A stretch of 64,000 nt of DNA from Ceratothoa steindachneri (lineage: Eukaryota > Arthropoda > Malacostraca > Isopoda > Cymothoidae): assembly GCA_963969495.1 (NCBI GenBank), contig OZ018338.1, positions 43,779,206-43,843,205 on the forward strand. The letters run 5' to 3'. The notes beneath the pieces are model-generated. The model did not search any database and was not told the origin of the DNA. It worked only from the letters and a program-made list of their open reading frames with translations. Positions 5,561-54,543 of this stretch are shown piece by piece (positions within the stretch are counted from its first letter, which is position 1; each line of letters starts with the position of its first letter). The translations under genes were made by a program, and so were the position numbers.

Positions 5561-5713
5561 GTGGTGTAGACTCACCATAAACATGCTGCAAAGAATCGAC
5601 AATAGCAAGGAATTTGCAATCGTTTTGCTAAAAAATTCATAACATCTCTGATCTCAATAGTTTGATTTCCATGGATGAAAAAAGCTAATTTCCTGCAAGC
5701 TGTTACTTTCTAC

Positions 5714-6960
5714 CTGAAATGCGTCAGAGAAATTAACGATAGTTTTGTAGGTATCATCCAGATCAGAGACTAATTGGATCAATGCTCTTTGAAAATTGGC
5801 AGCATTGTCTGTGGTTGTTCTGAAACAAATAAAACCATAAAAATTGTTTTTAAAATGTATTATTATTTACTAATATTTATGTATAGATGTTAATTTTATT
5901 CTATTGGCTATCGCTACTTCATTAAACTTACAATATTCAAGAATTCTGAAACAAAAATTGTAATAACTTACATGGTGACCTTGTCCTCGATCCCAAATTG
6001 GCTGTGGATATTCTCCATGACCTTGGCGAGTACACCATGGGTGTGGCTGCCCATGATCCTCTCGCAGGCCAGGAGGGCCATCTTCTTGTCCATGGTGTTT
6101 GGGTCCAGCCAGTCCAAGGTCATACCCAGGTAGCCCTTCTTGTTAGCTGACCAGAAGTCAGCTGTAGTGCCCACCCACTTGACTTGCTCCAGTTTGCTAA
6201 AATATAAGCATACCAATAATTAGCTTCATTAATCATTATGTATTGGAGTTATTTTTCAATACAATATATAATGCAATCTTTATTATTGACTATATATAGC
6301 GTTATTTTCTAATACAACAGTAAGAATATTTGAATACTGTTTCTTAGTTTCTTACCTGGTGGGGCTCTCCTTCATCTCCTCATAGGTTTTGAGGATGCTC
6401 CTCCACAATGTCCTCCTGAAGGGTACCTTTTTCTTAAGGATGAGGGTGTGGACCATGTCCTTGAAGCTCTGACTGTCCACAATCTGCAGCAGAAGCATGT
6501 TGTCCACCACAAACCTGACCATTGTCTTGTCGACGTTGGACTGCAGGACGGCGCTGCCCTGGGCCATGATGCCAAAGGTCTCGGCGATGGACATCTGCCG
6601 CTGCTTCTTGCTGGTTGACCCGCCGTGGTCTGACTGACCATATCGGTTCCTTCTGCGGCCGCCAGTTCCAACGTTGGCCTTACAAGCTTCATCAACTTGT
6701 TTTGCCTTATCAAGATGAATCCTGTTGAAGTGGCTCTTCAGGTTACCCTTGGTGCCTTTGTTCACCTTCACCTCAGGGATCTTGAGGAGGCAGGACAAGC
6801 ACTGGAAGATGTAACTGTTGCAAACCATTTTCTTGCACTTCACCTACTTGCCAAGCAATAGACAGGGTGACTGAGGCTCAGCCTCAGTGAGCTCAAAGTC
6901 ATAGCCTCCGCTGAGTCTCTTTGGCTTGATGTGGGCACAGTCTCTTGTGACGCCATCACT
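5714..6960 (-). pseudogene. hAT-family transposase, N-terminal exons with BED zinc finger
   Basis: Three exons can be read on the minus strand. Exon A (6356 up to about 6960) encodes a BED-type finger with CLSC and HFNRIH spaced as C-x2-C...H-x4-H. Exon B (5972-6196) gives VKWVGTTADFWSANKKGYLG, matching the start of the hAT RNase H domain with its first Asp. Exon C (5714-5819) gives TTDNAANFQRAL, matching the hAT TDNAANF block. Introns are 6197-6355 and 5820-5971, with GTAAGA/TTTTAG and GTAAGT/TTTCAG borders, and the frame is kept across both. A possible further acceptor lies near 6962. One in-frame TAG sits near 6847 before the finger. The C-terminal dimerisation half is not present. Confidence 0.8.
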
Positions 6961-7559: not shown

Positions 7560-9235
7560 TGAAAAGAGCCTCCAGAATATTTAGGCGGTGAAGATCAGTG
7601 TTTCTTCTGAGTATAGTAGTCTTTTTTACCAGAGTTGCTTTTGTAATTTGTGCGATATGCCTTTATTTGTAATGTGTATTTATTCCTCCTTCTTGCAAAT
7701 GCATCGTTAGGCACCGGCTGATGGTAGTCGTGGTCATACCTATATATTGATTATTTGGATGAGGTTTACAATCTCCATGGGGGCATTGGAATTTGTATAC
7801 CACATTTGTAGCCTTTAAGATGGATTGCTTTTCGCAGAGGTTGTTTTTCATTAATAAGTTGCTTACTTTTGTGTTTATAATAAATTCGTAAGGATAACTT
7901 GTTATTTTCTAAAATAGTGTAACTTTTTATGATATCTTGTAGTATTCTTTTGTCTGTTTGTAATCATCCGTCATTTGGTTCTTGTAGTAGAGTTGTATTA
8001 GTTTTTCCTTTTTCTCTTCCCTCCTTTACCTTAAGCCTGGAGTTTGAAATTTTCTTTTGTAATTTGTCGAATTCTCTGCTCGAGTAGCTATTATTAATCA
8101 GGATCTGTTTTGATCTTCGAAATTCTTCCTTAAGTGCGGTTCACTTTGAGCAGTTCTTGATGGCTCTTTGAATGTAGGAGTTCATTACCGATTTTTATAG
8201 TGTTCGGTGCACTCACTTTTGGCCTTAATGCATCGACCGAAGTCTGCCCCTTTACTATAGAAGGTGGTGGTATATTTTCCGTTGCTGTTTTGTTTTACGT
8301 CTACGTCCAGGAAGGAAATACGGCCAATTACGCTTAATTCATATGTAAATTTGAGAAACCGAATGGGATTCTAAGGTCCTTTTGAGTGGTAGTAATCGGT
8401 GTTCATCATTAATTATGAGGCATATGTCATCAACGAATCTGGTGTAAATTTTGGGTGGGTTCGTCATTCTAGTTATGAGCCTTTCTTCTAGATTTCCTAT
8501 ATAGAAGTTCGCGAGCGTAGGGCTAAGTGGTGATCCCATCGCTACTCCGTCAATTTGACGGTAAAGTTTGCCATCTCAGCTTCGAAATGGAAATTCGGTT
8601 GTACATATTCTTAAAAGGTGTTTTAATATTTGGGGTTCCATTCGTGGTGGAGGCAGGCCGGGGTTTTTATAAGCGCACTTTATAATTATTCTGATTGTTT
8701 CATTTATTGGCACATTGGTGAAAAGGCTCTTGACATCAAGTGAGGCTGGGGTGCCTCCTGGTGGGGAACTATGGAGAATATCAACAAATTTGTTGGATGA
8801 CTTTATGGAGAATTTTGAAAGGATGAATCGCGTAATAATTGAATTCAAGCGTTTGGAGAGTTTGTATGTCGGTATTGGGACTTGAGAAATAATTGGTCGA
8901 AGGTAGTTATTTTGCTCATGTGATTTGACATTTCCGTAGATGTATCCGGGTCTATATTCACCTTTAGTAGGAAAGAGTTCAGTTTGATTGGGGATGCTGT
9001 TGTTTTCGAATATTAGTTTGTTGGCTTTTTTCTTCAGTTGTTCGGTTGTGTCTTTTGTTAATTCTTTGAAATTTTTAGGTATCACAAAGTATGTTGTTTA
9101 GTTTTTGCAAGTAGAACGAAAATGTTTTACCTGTCTGCTTTTCTAAAGATGATGTTATTATTATCACGGAATGTTTTGAGGGATTATTTCATTTCTTCTC
9201 TTAATAAGGAGCTTTGTTCTTTGTACGTTGTTTAG
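7560..9235 (-). pseudogene. Penelope-like element of a second lineage (RT plus GIY-YIG with Cys/His linker)
   Basis: The minus-strand frame 8576-9085 gives the RT fingers region: LRPIISQVPIPTYKLSKRLN and ASLDVKSLFTNVPINETI. The frame 8339-8539 gives the palm: MGSPLSPTLANFYIGNLEE and FVDDICLI. The frame 7663-7851 gives a GIY-YIG type domain: TNVVYKFQCPHGDCKPHPNN, then QYIGMTTTTISRCLTMHL. The CPHGDC group is a putative zinc-binding insert before the nuclease, seen in some PLE groups. Motifs differ clearly from the PLE at 1560-2850, so two lineages coexist. The frame breaks near 8560 and again before the nuclease. The upstream end meets a plus-strand non-LTR copy at about 9236. Confidence 0.85.
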
Positions 9236-37031: not shown

Positions 37032-37450
37032 AAGTGAGTGGCCGGAGAGGAAGGAGGGAGGGGGTAAGCTGCTTGCCAGAGGTGATTAGCGGCTAAAGGC
37101 AGCTGTCCTAAATGAACCTGGCCCTTGATTTCCTCTTCTTGCAGTTGGAGGAATTTCATGGGAGTTAAGATTGCATATTTAGAGTTGGTCGGTTTTCTTG
37201 AATATATATTGCTACAAGGAGGAGTAATTGGCGTTTCTTGGGAGCATAGTCTAAAATTTTGGTATTTTCTTCGATCATTTTTCTGTTCAGGCAAGTTAAT
37301 GTATTTCTTGTGTATGGTTTTATGTGCACCATTGTTGAAGTGGTATGATATTCTTTTTGAGAGTATGGTTTTGGTTTAAGCCAGCTGCCTATAGCGGCTA
37401 ATCCCCTCTGGCAAGCAGCTTAACCCCCCTCCCTCTCGTGCCATTCACTT
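37032..37450. mobile_element. Small foldback element (inverted repeats of about 70 bp)
   Basis: 37,032-37,105 and 37,382-37,450 are imperfect reverse complements sharing AAGCTGCTTGCCAGAGG and GGCAGCTG. The 280-bp centre has no recognised gene. It lies just behind the 3' end of non-LTR copy 5. Could be a MITE; no target duplication identified. Confidence 0.7.
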
Positions 37451-37730: not shown

Positions 37731-37772
37731 TATATATATATATATATATATTTCTATATATATATATATATA
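37731..37772. repeat. Interrupted (TA)n at left TIR of the 3.5-kb element
   Basis: TA array with one TTTC interruption, ending at the left TIR. Confidence 0.9.
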
Positions 37773-40700
37773 TTAGGGTGTTTCTTCCCCCAAATCTTTT
37801 GAAGTTTCACTCTAATCACCATTTTTTGTTCCATTAGGTATAAAAACAATGATCGCCAAATATCGTGCAATTCAATTAATATTTAAGGCTGCCCCTCCAA
37901 GGTTTAACATTTACCTTAATATTTATGAGAGAAAAACAAAGCTTTTTGAATAGTTTTTGGTTAAAAACTGGATCTCGCAAAAGCTTAGTGTCATAATTGA
38001 TGTTCTAATTATAAAAATGTTTTGTTGTTGTAAATTTTTTCATTATCTTAAAAGGAAATGAGAAATCGCACAGAAAATGAAAAAAAAGAGAAAATATTCA
38101 ATTAATGCATTAATATGAATTCAAGAATATTTTGTCTTTTTATAAAATAAAGGCATTGCGTATATTTTTCTTAAGTATTTGTGAATGCAAATAGTCGCTG
38201 TGTTAATTAACATGCTATTTGCACGGTTACAATTGATTGTTAAATTGTAAGAGTTCAGCCATAGCAAATTGAATGGCTGCAACATTCAGTTAATTTGCTA
38301 TGTTGCCAGGATACGGGACGTGGACCCACTCTTACTTGTATCCCGACAACCTCTTTCCCCAACCACCACCCATTGAAAGAGGATAATTATTTGAGACCTA
38401 GCGGGCACGCTCACGGCCGCCTGTAACTGAGTAGCTGTTATACTATTACTGCCACTCATTGATGCTTGAGCAAGGTTTTCTTCCGGCTGTCAGGGAACTT
38501 TAAGCAAAAACTGAATCTGATCTTCATTTCGTGTTAAATGGCAATTGCATTCTTGAATCAATGCGATCCCTCATTCTGCATTGTCATTGACAACCTTGAG
38601 GTTAGAAATGACAGACGAGGCTGTCTTAAAATCAATGTTGCTTTCCCACGTTTCTGGGTCAGAGTGTAAGAAGGAATGTGGCAGTCCCAGCTTTGTGAAA
38701 AGGGACATTGAGTTCTTGCTACAGAAATCTTCTAGGTTGGATGATGAAACAAAGTCCTCTTTTAAATTGATCCCCTTTAGGGGTTTCTTTGCACCTTTCT
38801 TATTTATGATGAAAGCAAACATGGCTCTATTTGTATTTTTTGAAACCAGGGGATCAAACAAAGCCATTGCCACCATTTCATCTGACAGATACCAGAGGTG
38901 TTGACTTAACTTTGATGCAGTAGCTTTAGCTATGGTCTTGTTGTGGTAACTAGCCATAGCTTTCAGCATCTCAAGGTCTTGATGGGGAGCAACTGCTGCC
39001 AAAGGAGCCCGTATCCATGCCTTGCCATACAGAAGTACAACGAAGATGCAGATCTCACGAAGTCCCTTCTCTTCACGACGAGTCAACTTGAACTGTGTTC
39101 GCAGCATCCACACTTTTAATGAGTAAATTACTTTACTCATCCATCTGGCATGGAGCATTAGCCCAGGAGTTAACAAACGAAGCCCTCGTGAAGGAGTGCC
39201 TCCAGGAAGATCAGAGACAACTCTAGCAACTCATGGTAGTCATCTCGAAGACTAAGATTCTTATTCTTGGGAACATCTTCAAAGAAAGCTGTTATGTTGT
39301 CTTTACTATTAATCAGAAACTATTCCACCTCGGCACTGTCGGCTCCGGTGCTTATTGAACCTGGACCATGATCAATGGTGTGCCAATGTGTTTTAAATCT
39401 CTTGAACAGGAGTACTTCAGGGCCAGACGTTGGACCCATTGAGGCGGTGAACGCTGCTCCAAGGACGAGCTCAAGAAGATGGTGGCGGCAGGCCAGATGC
39501 ATGAAATCTTTTTTCAACTGCTGTTGCAGGATGACACAGGTTCCGAAAATATTCCCTGTATTTGTGGCTGTGGTGTCCAATCCCATCCCTAGAATCTGAT
39601 CTTCCAGGGCCCAGTCTCTCAGTGCTGATAAAACAGCATTTGCTTACTCGCTACCTGTTCCACTCTTGAGCTTGGCAACACACAAGAGCTGACTGGTACC
39701 AATACCAGTTATCAAAACTGGAAGCCTCTCCACATGCTGATTTCCAGTGAGATCTTTTATCAACTCCCCATCCCAGTGCACGATGAGTGGAACATCTTGA
39801 AGCTCGTATTTAAGCCTGGGTGTAGCATGGGCTTGAGTACGATTTTCTATTCTCTTTCGGTGAATGGAGCTCTGATTTATGTTTAAGCCTTCAACATTAT
39901 AACCTAAGCTGGAAACTGTCTTTGCAAGAATGAATGTTGCAGCTCTTGATGACGTTTTAGTCAGTTCAAGGGCAGCAGCTAATGTCGGCGTCACAATATT
40001 GCCCACGCGCGCTCGCTTAGTTGGAGGCAGAACTGGCACAACAGCTTCCGAAGGCCTGACAACGCCCTGCCCTTGATCAATCTCTGTGTCATTAGACCCA
40101 TTACCTGATGAGGATGAACTGGTGAGAACCGGTTTGCTCATTAACACCTCCTTTTCAACTGTTGCTCGCTGACGACGACGTTCTGCAGCAATGGAACATG
40201 CTTCCACCTTCTTCTCCTTCTGCACCAATATTTTGTCAACTGATCCAAGGACGCCTCGCCAACAGTCTTCCCTTTGTGCAAGGAGAAAATCCTTATCCTC
40301 TTGGATCTACATAATGTTCATAGCATTTTGATGGGCGATGTCAAAGAGAGTGTCGAGACTTTTTAAAAATTCACTTTCCTTTGCCTTATGTGCTGCAGTT
40401 GTCCTTCTTGAATAGTTTTGGAGCGCTTTCCAGTTAGAAAGCACTTTTTTCTATTTCTTTTATTACATGTTGCTTTACCTGTACTGGAATATTCACTTTT
40501 GCCCAAAACTCAAGAGAGACCTCACAGGTGGCTTTTGACGATGTCCGAATTTCCTCTTTTAAGTTGAAATGCCGATGAAAAAAGTATGCAATTACTTGTC
40601 TCGTCTTAGGAAGCTTTAATCCACCAATCATGGGCTCGCTGTGACCTATCAAATAAAACTCAGTTTTGCTTCTAGTAGAGCTCGCCATCTGCAAACAGAT

Positions 40701-41300
40701 ACACAAAAAAATCATAAAGATAGTAACTATTTCAATTTGAACAGGTTTACATACTTTTAAACAGAAGTTTAACAAGTAAATTAGAAATAAACAATGAAAA
40801 AAGGAACATACAAGTAAATAGAATTGGACAACGTGATATTAAACAAGTGCATAGACTTACTGGGGGTATCAGAGAACACACGGTAGCACAACAACACACC
40901 ATCAACGCTGAGAGCAGACTACCCTCGCTAGCCGCAGTGCAGCCGCCTCTACCCAAATCCCTTGTACCACCGCTCCCAAGTGCTAGGGAGGGGTGGGGTA
41001 AGGGAATGGTGCGTTCATAAAGCATCAAATGGCCTCAATGGTGGGTTGAAGAGAATGGTTTTAATAATACGCTCACAACTGTCCTCTTTGGGTGTGTCTT
41101 TGTGTAGACGATCCCCTTAAATAGTTTAAGTCAAATATTAAGGAAAATGGTCCATTGTGCAACCTTGTTGCAGGGGCACCCCTAAATATTATTTTAATTA
41201 CACCAAATTCTACAAGGAGTGTTTCTGTGGGTATTGAAACAATTCTGGGTGGTTAAAGCTTGTATTATTCCAACTTTAATTTTACCTGAGAAACACCGTA

Positions 41301-41301
<1 letters not shown>
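37773..41301 (-). mobile_element. DNA transposon of unassigned superfamily with long imperfect TIRs
   Basis: The left end TATTAGGGTGTTTCT (37,771-37,785) pairs with the right end at 41,288-41,302, whose reverse complement is TATTACGGTGTTTCT (14 of 15). An inner block of about 50 bp matches again. Left 37,875-37,925 and right 41,132-41,192 share TAATATTTA-GG-TGCCCCT-CAAGGTT and CCTTAATATTT. The TIRs therefore reach about 150 bp with a diverged middle. Both ends sit in (TA)n, so the TSD cannot be read (TA or TTA are possible). A single minus-strand gene fills the inside. Confidence 0.8.
38455..40689 (-). pseudogene. Putative RNase H-fold transposase, unassigned family, about 740 codons
   Basis: ATG at 40,689 (MASSTRSKTEFYLIG) follows a good acceptor (TTTGCAG), suggesting an upstream non-coding exon. 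Blocks in order: a helical N-terminus (40,437-40,689); after a frameshift, SLDTLFDIAHQNAMNIM and DKDFLLAQREDCWRGV with one stop; and a basic Ser-rich linker (40,228 down). Next come VPLIVHWDGELIKDLTGNQH (first Asp candidate), GLDTTATNTGNIFGTCVIL (second Asp), and HLACRHHLLELVLGAAFTAS (a C-x2-H group as in several cut-and-paste transposases). LFKRFKTHWHTID, HARWMSKVIYSLKVWMLR and LSDEMVAMALFDPLVS follow. Reading through a stop at 38,570 adds another 35 codons. I recall similar proteins as orphan or transposon-like genes in other invertebrates but cannot name the superfamily. Confidence 0.7.

Positions 41302-41303
<2 letters not shown>

Positions 41304-41350
<47 letters not shown>
41304..41350. 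repeat. (TA)n microsatellite at right TIR
   Basis: TA array starting at the right end of the 3.5-kb element. Confidence 0.97.

Positions 41351-41423: not shown

Positions 41424-41478
<55 letters not shown>
41424..41478. repeat. (TA)n microsatellite
   Basis: TA array ending at the left arm of the PLE-end foldback. Confidence 0.97.
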
Positions 41479-41481
<3 letters not shown>

Positions 41482-41511
41482 ACAAAGCCCACAGGGAAAA
41501 TTAATAAGAGG

Positions 41512-41557
41512 ATTCCAAATACTTTCGAACTTTATTTCGAGGTCTTTATCAAGGAAT
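41512..41557 (-). ncRNA. Second hammerhead-like fold, opposite arm
   Basis: The inverted arm carries the same arrangement: helix I, TTGATAAA core, GAAA. There is one mismatch in helix II and a G-U pair in helix III, so it looks more decayed. Confidence 0.4.
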
Positions 41558-41650
41558 AACAAAAGTAGTAAAAATTGCAATATTTATAAGTTAATACACC
41601 AAATTCTACACCAAATCCTTATAAATATTACAATTTTCAATACTTTTGTT

Positions 41651-41696
41651 ATTCCTTGATAAAGAACTCGAAATAAAGTTCGAAAGTACTTGGAAT
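41651..41696 (+). ncRNA. Minimal hammerhead-ribozyme-like fold in PLE end
   Basis: Helix I pairs 41,651-41,655 (ATTCC) with 41,692-41,696 (GGAAT). Helix II pairs 41,664-41,668 (GAACT) with 41,677-41,681 (AGTTC). GAAA is at 41,682-41,685. A 2-bp helix III (A85-G86 with C89-T90) leaves T91 at the cleavage position. The core reads TTGATAA plus one extra A, where CTGANGA is expected. C3 and G8 both change (to U and A), keeping that pair. Minimal type I hammerheads with tiny helix III are known from PLEs. Confidence 0.5.
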
Positions 41697-41726
41697 CCTC
41701 TTATTAATTTTTCCTGTGGGATTTGT

Positions 41727-41729
<3 letters not shown>

Positions 41730-41815
<86 letters not shown>
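41730..41815. repeat. (TA)n microsatellite between PLE end and mariner
   Basis: 86 bp of TA, abutting a PLE terminal repeat on the left and a mariner terminus on the right. Confidence 0.97.
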
Positions 41816-47550: not shown

Positions 47551-49384
47551 GTTTAGTGGTCGATCATTTTCGTGCCAGTTATAAGCAGTGTGGCTTGATT
47601 CTGTATCCTCTGCATCGTCCTGTAAGAGGTACAACTTGCGTGATGCTTCGGAAACGGTACAGTTTCTTCAGCTTTATTTTGGCTAGGGAGACTATGTTGT
47701 TTATGTGGGCATTATATCCTGTTTTGGAAAGACGTAAGCCCAGAACTTTTCCCTGGTTAGTGTATGGATAAATTTCATCCTTAACGAGGACGTCGTCTAT
47801 TTTCCGGCGGTTCATCGGAATTATCTGGAATTTCAGGCGGTTAGTCTTGATTTTCCATCTTTTTTCTTAATGCATGGTGTTATCAATCTTGACTTAAACT
47901 CTAGCGTACGTGATGGGACTTGGAATGATTTGTGTGATGTCATCTGCGAACTGCAGATACATCGAATCATCCTTCACTGGATCAGGGAGGTCTATTTTGT
48001 ACACGAGGGAACAGCAACGGACTCAGGCAGCTGCTTTGTGAAACTTCCGCCTCGAATTAGATTCCTTTGTAGTCCTCGATTGCGATTTGGGCTCTGCTCT
48101 CCATGACATAGTCACAAAGGACCCTTTCTAAGATTGGATTTAACTGGAGATTAAGGATCTTGAATTGTAGCCCTCTTGCTTAAACCTTATCAAATGCCTT
48201 ATTTACATCCCGCAGCACCACGTTAACGAATTTTCGCTCAGATTTGCTGCATGCGAGTTTTCCTGTTAGGAGGGCGAGAGCGGTCTGCGTTTCTCGTCTC
48301 CTATGGAACCCGTGCTATTGACGATTGTGAGCTTGAAACCTGTCAGTCAGGAGCTTCTCGTAGACATTTGCAACGAATTCCAGCAGGAAGATTGGCCTGT
48401 AATTGATCAGTTGAACAGGGAGTTTTCCTCCTCCCTTAGGTAAGAAAATTATTTTAGTAATTTTAAAACCATCGGGGTAGTAACCCGTGTCCGGGGAAGC
48501 GTTATAAATATTTGTGATTCCATCAATGATCTGCTGTGGGGCATTTATCAAGTTGATTTTGGTGATGCCCGCCTAGCCAGGTGCACTTTGTTCAAAGGAT
48601 ATTACAGTGACCATGACCTCCTCTGGTGTTATGGGAAAGCCATGGCCCGCCATCTCCCTGCCCTGGTCTACTTGATGTTGTGGGTGCGTGCGGTGTATAA
48701 TATGATTCAGGTCTTCAACCAGTCGGCCTTCGAATTCATGGTCGAACTCTTCATTGTCTTCTGGGATGATACTGAAGACATTTTCCCAATAATTTTCAAA
48801 TCTTTCTTCTAGAACCACCGCGTCCTTTATATAAATCCAGTTCTCTATTATCCGAGCATTCGTTTTTCTGGTTAGTACTTTTAGTTTCTTGATTTGACGC
48901 CAGAATTCAGCCGGGTTCAGCTCGCTATCGATTTTGGCTATTATGTTGTTCCAGATTTCCTCTTGTTGGAGATTGATGGGCTCTTTTAGCTTGGTACTTA
49001 GGCGCCGAAGAAGCAAGCTTCCTTCCTAGTTAGGACTTTCCCATCTTATCTCATCATACACTTCCCTGTGAACACGAGCGATCTCCCTCATCTCCTCTAT
49101 CCATCTGGGCTGAGGAGGGGTTTTGTACCCAGTCTTGGATACGCACTCTCGGTCTGCTTCTAGAATGGGCGTAGTTATCCTCTCCAGTTCTTCGTTTATT
49201 TCCTCCAATTTCAGATGGGGCGTATTGACTGAGTTGTCTCTTGTAACGTTCCCAGCTGGCCGAGGCTTAGCTTTTGCGGAGAGAGACTGGAAGATGGATC
49301 GGCGCGAGTGATATTGTGGTGAGATCGCTATGTGATCGCTGGGGACTCTGTTTAAGATTATGCTATTTTTGGTGGCTTATGTGG
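47551..49384 (-). pseudogene. Non-LTR ORF2, copy 7 (EN end, linker, RT, C-terminus)
   Basis: Minus strand: the EN end ILNRVPSDHIAI lies near 49,340. The linker covers 49,026-49,208 (YKTPPQPRWIEEMREIARVH) and 48,573-49,016 (LNPAEFWRQIKKLKVLTRKT). The RT front covers 48,315-48,551 (ITNIYNASPDTGYYPDGFK, INYRPIFLLEFVANVYEKLL). A QxHGFHRRR-type block follows near 48,300 and a decayed KAFDK block near 48,190. The C-terminal part is at 47,579-47,815 (GKVLGLRLSKTGYNAHINN). Very similar to copy 8. It is cut at 47,551 by PLE composite A. Plus-strand frames here are antisense. Confidence 0.8.
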
Positions 49385-52015: not shown

Positions 52016-54543
52016 CTAAGAAGCGTTCGATGGTGCTGCCGTTGCCGTCAGAAAGAATCTCTCGTTCAGATACCTTCCAGAACTGAACGAGTCCTTTGTG
52101 GCGGTAGAGTTGCACACACTTGTGGGCAATCTCGTAATCGCGGTGGCATACCAACCGCCTCGACGAACGTACCTGCCTTTCACAAACTTCTCCACCTTGT
52201 TCGGCCACTGCAGAATGGCATTCCTTGGAGGCGACCTCAATTCCAGATGCAGAACGGCTGGCTATGGTAAAACAAATAACAGAGGCCATAACTTGGAAAT
52301 GATTATGCGACGATAAAACATCCAGAGGCTAGGACCGGATTTCCCGACCTATATCACCTCTCGGCAGCAACAAAGCCCGACATAATCATGACAAGTGATG
52401 GCTTCCCATTCAACTATCATACGAGCCAGGACCAGCAATTACAAACGACCATATAGCAATCTTGACCACCATCTCACTCGCTTCGATCCAGATTCTGGAC
52501 CCTCTGCGCAAAAGCTACGCTTCGGCCGACTGGGAAAGCTACGGAGAAATCATAGGTTCATTCGAACCAGCCGACCTAAGCGAAGCAACTCTAGAGGAGA
52601 TTGACGTGGAGCTGGAGAAGATAACAGCCCTCATCACCGAGGCTGACCGCAAGTGTGTACCCATGGCAGGTTACAAGACTCCTCCACAACCCAGATGGAC
52701 CGAGGAGATGAAAGAGATCGCTAGGGAGCACAGGGAGGTGTATGAAGAGATCAGAGGAGCGGGTACGAATCGAGAACGAAACTCGTTGCTACGACAATTG
52801 CGTGATGAGCTAACGCTGGCTATTAACCAACAACAGGCTGAGATCTGGAACAGCCTAATAGCCAGGGTAGACAGCGAGGTGACCCCCGATAAATTCTGGC
52901 GCCTAGTAAGTAAACTAAAAGGCCTACAAAATAGAGAAAAGACCCGCATTAAAGAGAGCAATGACTACTTGGAGGATCCGGCGGTCCTGGAGGAAAGGTT
53001 CCGCACGCTCTGGAAGGAAATCTTCTTAATAACACCTGAGGACAATCCGGAATTTGACCAGGAATTCGAAGACCATCTGGTTAAAGAACTTAATCAGATC
53101 ATACATCGAATACACCCATGAGCCTACGTCGACGAAGGGAGGGAGATGGCGGACCATGGCCGACCAATTATAATGGAAGAGGTCATGAAAATCATAAAAT
53201 CTTTTAAACAAAAGGCGCCAGGCTGGACGGGCATCACTAAAAATAATTTTCTGCATGGCCCCCGCCAGATCATTCAGGGAATCACTAACATCTATAACGC
53301 TTCTCTGAATACGGGCTACTTCCCCGATGGTTAAAAAATGACTAAAATCATTTTTAACCCCAAAGGAAATAAGCCCCCCGATCAACTGGTGGACTACAGG
53401 CCAATATCCCTCCTTGAGTTTGTAGGCAAAGTCTACGAGAAGATTCTAGCCAACTGGTTACAAGATCAGCTGTCCGAGCTGGAAGCTCACAACCTTCAGC
53501 AGCATGGGTTCTGCAAGAGAAGAGGGACTGCTACAGCCCTTGCCCTTCTCACCGAAAAGCTTGCCCACTGTAAAGCTGAGGGGAAGTACATAGACTTGGT
53601 GATGCGAGATGTGCAGAAGGCTTTCGATAAAGTTTGGCTGACAGGTCTACAATCTAAGATCTTGGGCTTCAAACTAAACCATATCCTGGAAAAGTTCTCT
53701 GCGATAACACCATGAAAAGGAAAGCCCGAATTTCGATTGAAGGAAACAGAGGATCCGAATTCGAACTAGAGGCGGGTGTTCCACAAGGTAGCTGTCTGAC
53801 ACCGCTATTGTATCTTGTGTACACGTCTGCAGTTTGCAGACGAGGTCACTCAGATAATCCTCAGTTCCTATAGGAACACTAGAGTTCAATCAAGGGATAC
53901 AGCTACCGAAATAAATAATATCAATCGTTTCGAAAGAAAGTGGAAAATTAAGACTAATCACCAAAAGTTCCAGATCCTTCCAGTGAACCGCCGGAAACGA
54001 GACGACGTCATAGTCGCAGAGGAAATTTCCCCATACTCCAACGAAGGTAAAGTCCTGGGTCTGCGCATCACCTCAACAGGGTATAAAATGTACATCAACA
54101 ACCAAATCTCCCTAGCCAAAGAAGAACTTAAAAAACTGCAAAGGTTCAGAAACCTCAGCGCCAAAAACATCAAGAAGCTGTACACTGTCCTGGTGCACTC
54201 AACACTGGTGTACCCAGCAATGGTAATGCAGGCAGCTAGTTCCACCTCTCTTAGATTTATGCAGAAAGTCCAGAACAATGCTACCCTGCTTATAGCTGGC
54301 GCGAGCAGAATGGGCTATATTCTGCAGATGGAACTGCACGCAAGAGCAGAACTTGAGCCATTGAATATGGTCCTCCAAAGGCTAGGGAGAAAGACCTGGG
54401 GAAAAGTAGAAACTGAAATTCTCCCGCATATAGAGGCAAACATAGATATACCACAACTGATAATTGGACAAGTTACTAGGAGAGCCCTACTCCCAAGTGG
54501 AAGACTGTGCTCTCGGGAAGATCAAGCAGTTATGTTCACGTAA
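52016..54543 (+). pseudogene. Non-LTR ORF2: APE endonuclease (partial), linker, RT, C-terminal domain
   Basis: EN: AFDGAAVAVRKNLSFRYLPE-like start, VAYQPPRRTYLPFTNFSTLF and LGGDLNSRCRTAG (52,098-52,316). Linker: a long frame at 52,462-53,121. RT front: 53,146-53,334 (SFKQKAPGWTGITKNNFLHG). RT core: 53,338-53,715 (YRPISLLEFVGKVYEKIL, QQHGFCKRRGTATALALLTE, DVQKAFDKVW), then EAGVPQGSCLTPLLYLVYTS near 53,770. The catalytic box reads LQFADEVTQI near 53,823-53,850, with FADE for the usual FADD and a small deletion just before it. The C-terminal frame at 53,815-54,543 is open for 242 codons. About five frame interruptions in total. Confidence 0.88.

Follow-up and report, generated by a model that had tools for sequence, protein, structure and literature searches.

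A 64,000-nucleotide stretch of the genome of the isopod Ceratothoa steindachneri (assembly GCA_963969495.1, contig OZ018338.1, positions 43,779,206 to 43,843,205 of the forward strand), referred to here as the window, harbours a repeated mobile element with long, imperfect terminal inverted repeats (TIRs), an 8-bp target-site duplication (TSD) and a broken transposase gene on the minus strand (Table 1). The element is very probably a decayed copy of a DNA transposon of the cut-and-paste type with a hAT-like mode of action, most likely one of the hATm family. A preliminary description made from the DNA letters had considered an uncharacterised superfamily at this site; this view is not upheld by the predicted Hermes-like fold of the transposase, the 8-bp TSD of the pattern nTnnnnAn and termini that agree with those published for hATm.

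Ends, target sites and copies

When the copies are compared, each end of the element falls one base further inside than in the preliminary description, which had recognised the element but drawn it from 37773 to 41301. Likewise, the 14/15 match then seen between the outer ends holds only if three flanking bases are counted, whereas in the element proper the terminal 12 bases agree at 11 positions. The TIRs, at first put at about 150 bp, extend over about 160 bp; those of the window copy align over 163 positions, 113 of them identical, and those of eight other copies over 151–165 positions with 100–118 identities. The best local score of this pairing is 56, a value reached by one of 962 random window pairs, whereas 1000 Markov shuffles gave at most 33.

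A DNA search of this one 3.93-Gb genome (529 contigs) yielded 279 first-look candidates, 40 of which were scored. These gave 73 match pieces, the main ones being 87–92% identical to the window copy. The element is thus repeated in the genome, as befits the mobile element that had been proposed, rather than standing alone; we count at least 40 copies, meaning scored candidates, some of which are fragments. The copy comparison comprised 40 sequences (39 loci and the window copy). In 27 of them the two ends could be located, or in 26 once a chance match of negative length (L041) is left out, and the 13 sequences lacking one or both ends contributed no TSD. The ends are TAGGGTGTTTC...GAAACACCCTA. 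Of the 26 left ends, 17 carry TAGGGTG without change, as 16 of the 26 right ends do CACCCTA, and the window copy begins with TAGGG, which fits the YARNG typical of hAT termini.

The length of the TSD emerges from copies whose flanks are not purely A/T. Seven of these 17 match in at least seven of eight flanking bases, compared with 9 of 272 mispaired-flank controls, and the mean match at 8 bp is 0.735 versus 0.453 in the mispaired controls; the other lengths from 3 to 11 bp do not behave in this way. After removal of the chance row L041 and of two duplicates (L020 and L029) the proportion becomes 7 of 14. The duplications follow the pattern nTnnnnAn: of the 17 left copies, 13 have T as the second base and 15 have A as the seventh, counts that take in these same three rows, which are not independent or not real. 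TA repeats lie on both flanks in 11 of 24 insertions, compared with a fraction of 0.116 of the nTnnnnAn 8-mers in the window, a background drawn from this one 64-kb window only. Since the flanks carry an 8-bp TSD and are enriched in TA repeats, the (TA)n tracts that had been noticed on both sides of the element are insertion targets, lying outside it and duplicated over 8 bp.

Three of the loci (L014, L020 and L029) lie on the same contig and have identical flanks that read by eye as a mariner-type transposase; they represent one insertion, duplicated with its surroundings. When the flanks of this mariner-like insertion site are joined, the frame is open on removing 8 bases, and likewise on removing 2 or 5.

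The transposase and its relatives

The minus-strand gene had been estimated at about 740 codons. Its read-through amounts to 737 codons, but the gene is broken by two frameshifts and four in-frame stops (one near 40309, the others at 39646-39644, 39322-39320 and 38573-38571). None of 21 sequences examined for their frame (the window copy and 20 loci) has a full reading frame, the longest open stretch being 425 amino acids. With all 21 frame-checked copies broken, the transposon family has probably lost all activity in this genome.

A search with the read-through recovered 52 proteins, and an alignment of 50 of them gave 878 matches among 7990 scored candidates, the best 120 of which make up the family listing. 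The closest relative among the matches listed is a protein of 729 amino acids from a metagenome contig (P0001), which is 79% identical to the window read-through. Proteins of Artemia franciscana (entries with the prefix QYM36_), Patella caerulea (SNE40_008071) and Schizaphis graminum (A0A2S2PCY9) are homologous along their whole length. Many relatives are intact reading frames, unlike the broken window copy, and they are carried as hypothetical proteins, in keeping with the earlier suspicion that such proteins may be filed as orphan genes elsewhere. Two Artemia relatives (P0039 and P0045) are named Cc8K15.2-like protein; Cc8K15.2 is presumably the name of a gene in the bracovirus region of Cotesia congregata, and this would agree with the report of a hATm element from the same bracovirus. 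One relative (P0043), on a contig of 1,835 bases, comes from a metagenome assembly labelled as cyanobacterial and is probably eukaryotic contamination. None of 132 stretches with the family pattern in viral contigs was confirmed as a carrier, nor was any of 50 such stretches in prokaryotic genome contigs.

The motifs HWDGEL, GLDTTATNTG and CRHH, singled out at the first reading, are all present in the window read-through. The DDE/D-type transposase with a CxxH group suggested at that time is also borne out by conservation, as the candidate residues D, D, C, H and E are kept in 63 or 64 of 64 relatives (Table 1), the Glu candidate within the motif NDxAERG in all 64.

A Pfam scan of 50 relatives at an E-value of 0.1 assigned no transposase family to any of them, and THAP and MULE families were absent from the matches. 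Neither the read-through nor the family profile had a sequence match in the PDB. A pYEATS hint (E 0.013 on a piece, 0.22 on the whole) was discarded as below the cut-off, as were 12 sporadic matches, each in one or two of the 50 members. PF27041 is precomputed on one of the best 120 relatives and on 13 of 60 matches of a Hermes search; the local Pfam scan did not show it. The N-terminal domain is predicted to be a helical bundle, its near-invariant residues include no zinc ligands, and its predicted structure has no fold match in the PDB. In hAT transposases this domain is the usual place of DNA binding, and a BED zinc finger is common there, albeit not universal.

Table 1. Features of the transposon copy in the window (window positions; residue numbers of P0001)
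Feature	Position	Strand	Remarks
Whole transposon, non-functional copy	37774..41300	-	3,527 bp; ends set by comparison with 39 other loci
Left TSD, ATATATAT	37766..37773		Within (TA)n tract
Right TSD, ATAAATAT	41301..41308		7/8 match to left TSD; edge of (TA)n tract
Left imperfect TIR, start TAGGGTGTTTC	37774..37935	+	Inner limit approximate
Right imperfect TIR, end GAAACACCGTA	41130..41300	-	Inner limit approximate
Broken transposase gene, ATG at 40688	38456..40688	-	Gene end set by family comparison
First catalytic Asp candidate codon, HWDGEL (D284)	39770..39772	-	D in 63/64 relatives, 1 gap
Second catalytic Asp candidate codon, GLDTTATNTG (D349)	39575..39577	-	D in 64/64 relatives; aligned to Hermes D248
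CRHH (C378, H381), hAT C-x2-H equivalent	39479..39490	-	C and H in 64/64 relatives; aligned to Hermes C265/H268
Trp codon, HARWMSK (W494)	39141..39143	-	W in 62/64 relatives; possible Hermes W319 equivalent, by motif only
Catalytic Glu candidate codon, NDNAE (E683)	38574..38576	-	E in 64/64 relatives; possible Hermes E572 equivalent

Relation to hAT and hATm

Among the fold matches listed, Hermes (PDB 6dwz, 4d1q and 8edg), a member of the Ac family of hAT, is the clear best match of the predicted structure, which in the model covers Hermes residues 135-609 with the RNase H-like core and the large helical insertion. When the family profile was compared with two hAT alignments that overlap each other, the probability was 59 and the E-value 9e-5, and the second Asp (D2) and CxxH fell into register with both alignments. 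In a local profile run, 121 family members scored 45.8 against a mixed hAT set (42.0 with match columns only), whereas shuffling reached at most 21.9 by column (60 runs) and 34.2 by block (40 runs); the score against non-Hermes hATs alone was 45.4. When the profile is taken by parts, the stretch from the first Asp (D1) to CxxH is the sole one above the shuffles (35.3 versus 23.4). As far as structure prediction goes, the transposase appears to fold like known hAT transposases, with a sequence that has drifted far from them.

Apart from the predicted fold of core and insertion, the likeness to Hermes comprises the order D-D-CxxH-W-E, the spacing from D2 to Glu and the 8-bp nTnnnnAn TSD, a pattern given for Hermes in PMC10368747. 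Identity in the structural alignment is about 11%, and the N-terminal domain differs and lacks a BED finger. The stretch from CxxH to RW measures 113 residues in this family versus 51 in Hermes, and the Hermes TIRs have 17 bp, in contrast to about 160 bp in this element. Hermes also has a detectable hATC sequence signature and this family does not, although the predicted fold match reaches Hermes residue 609.

The element also agrees with hATm, which has been proposed as a fourth hAT family with more than 74 Repbase entries. That account (PMC6004678) gives TSDs of 8 or 9 bp in 28 members, TAGGGTG and CACCCTA as the termini, two elements with TIRs of 417 and 575 bp, and a wide distribution in animals; it also reports PF05699 for hATm-6 and an autonomous element with hATm ends in the Cotesia congregata bracovirus. 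Measured against this, our element shares the termini TAGGGTG...CACCCTA, the 8-bp TSD and long TIRs, and its family a wide occurrence in animals, whereas the TIRs are imperfect and, at about 160 bp, shorter than the two published ones. The element also agrees with hATm-3 of Hydra, for which PMC8721813 shows the duplication TATATATA. Since termini, TSD and pattern agree with the published ones but PF05699 is undetected, we hold with high confidence that the element works like a hAT, and consider its membership in hATm, for which this one feature is missing, likely.

Several results weigh against this assignment. Over the whole chain the predicted structure reaches modest TM-scores with Hermes (0.27-0.35 when taken by query and 0.37-0.50 by target), and the root-mean-square deviation is 11-16 over all columns. 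D1 is aligned to the hAT D1 in one of the two hAT alignments and not in the other. Hermes-like sequences alone (29) gave a profile score of only 23.2 with a probability of 0.5, which does not rise above the shuffles; the C-terminal part stays below its shuffles (10.7 versus 19.3), and the scores of the middle part with the insertion and of the part preceding the core do not exceed theirs. In the Pfam scan at E 0.1, PF05699 (hATC) was found in none of the 50 relatives, although that library gives a match at 4e-25 when Hermes is scanned, and zf-BED was likewise found in none; PF05699 is therefore not detectable here, despite its report for hATm-6. Finally, the likeness to hATm is drawn from its published description.

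The missing PF05699, the N-terminal domain without a PDB fold match and the confinement of hAT sequence similarity to the D1-CxxH stretch would also suit a separate hAT-related lineage, outside Ac, Buster, Tip and hATm, in which recognisable BED and hATC were lost and the TAGGGTG ends are shared through descent or convergence. We regard this as unlikely, for the seven-base termini at both ends, the TSD length, the long TIRs and the TA-rich targets are as published for hATm; the Cc8K15.2-like names of the two Artemia relatives would speak against it as well. Such a lineage would be large and distinct from hATm: it would retain the core, the ends and the 8-bp chemistry of hAT, have a helical domain of a fold unseen in the PDB at its N-terminus in place of BED, lack the hATC signature through loss and favour (TA)n targets, a picture that we find rather improbable. 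A new DNA transposon superfamily, hAT-like only superficially, would accord with the lack of Pfam and PDB sequence matches, but we rejected it as very unlikely on the predicted fold, TSD and termini: Hermes clearly stands out as the best of the fold matches, the TSD pattern and termini are hAT-like, and the hAT profiles bring D2 and CxxH into register at scores above shuffled controls. The observation named at the outset as one that would refute a new superfamily, agreement with a known one, was accordingly obtained by fold, TSD and termini, and not by Pfam. Although 8-bp TSDs and long TIRs (Galileo) also occur in the P superfamily, together with a THAP DNA-binding domain, a P-type element is highly improbable, as is a member of some further RNase H-type superfamily, MuDR or Kolobok for example, since the Pfam matches of the 50 relatives include neither THAP nor MULE nor any other family of transposases, Hermes heads the fold list and the TTAA duplication of Kolobok is excluded by 8-bp non-TTAA TSDs; that P-element transposase is not among the 50 fold matches listed excludes nothing.

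Surroundings, proposed mechanism and significance

Right beside the element, at window positions 41425-41783, lies an inverted repeat with 166-nt arms (96% complementary), a 27-nt spacer and long TA tracts at its ends. On the other side, a possible inverted pair was seen by eye within 37034-37450 (stretches near 37034-37100 and 37380-37450). Pieces resembling by eye an ordinary BED-type hAT transposase (TTADFWS..., TTDNAANF...), with apparent gaps or introns, occur at 5657-6843 on the minus strand; a Pfam scan of the first of these pieces gave no hAT family. Open frames that resemble by eye reverse-transcriptase or non-LTR (long terminal repeat) remnants are located at 8576-9085 and 48573-49016 on the minus strand and at 52462-54543 on the plus strand.

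For the hAT-like, probably hATm, element the following mode of action can be proposed. Comparison of sequences establishes its ends, the length and pattern of the TSD, the enrichment of TA tracts, the copy number, the invariant residues and the decay of the copies; from these and the predicted hAT-like fold we infer catalysis and excision. A single protein would bind the long inverted repeats, and its RNase H-like core (candidates D284, D349 and E683, P0001 numbering), together with the large helical insertion, would excise the element as in Hermes. Insertion at staggered cuts 8 bp apart, often within (TA)n tracts, would then yield the 8-bp nTnnnnAn duplication.

A large set of hypothetical proteins can thereby be read as hAT-type transposases, probably of hATm, with a candidate catalytic triad, CxxH and a predicted fold. 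Among its parts, only the N-terminal domain, with a fold unseen in the PDB, might prove to be novel; that the whole lineage is new is unlikely. With a Pfam model for the family, many spurious host genes would disappear from the annotations of crustaceans, molluscs and aphids.
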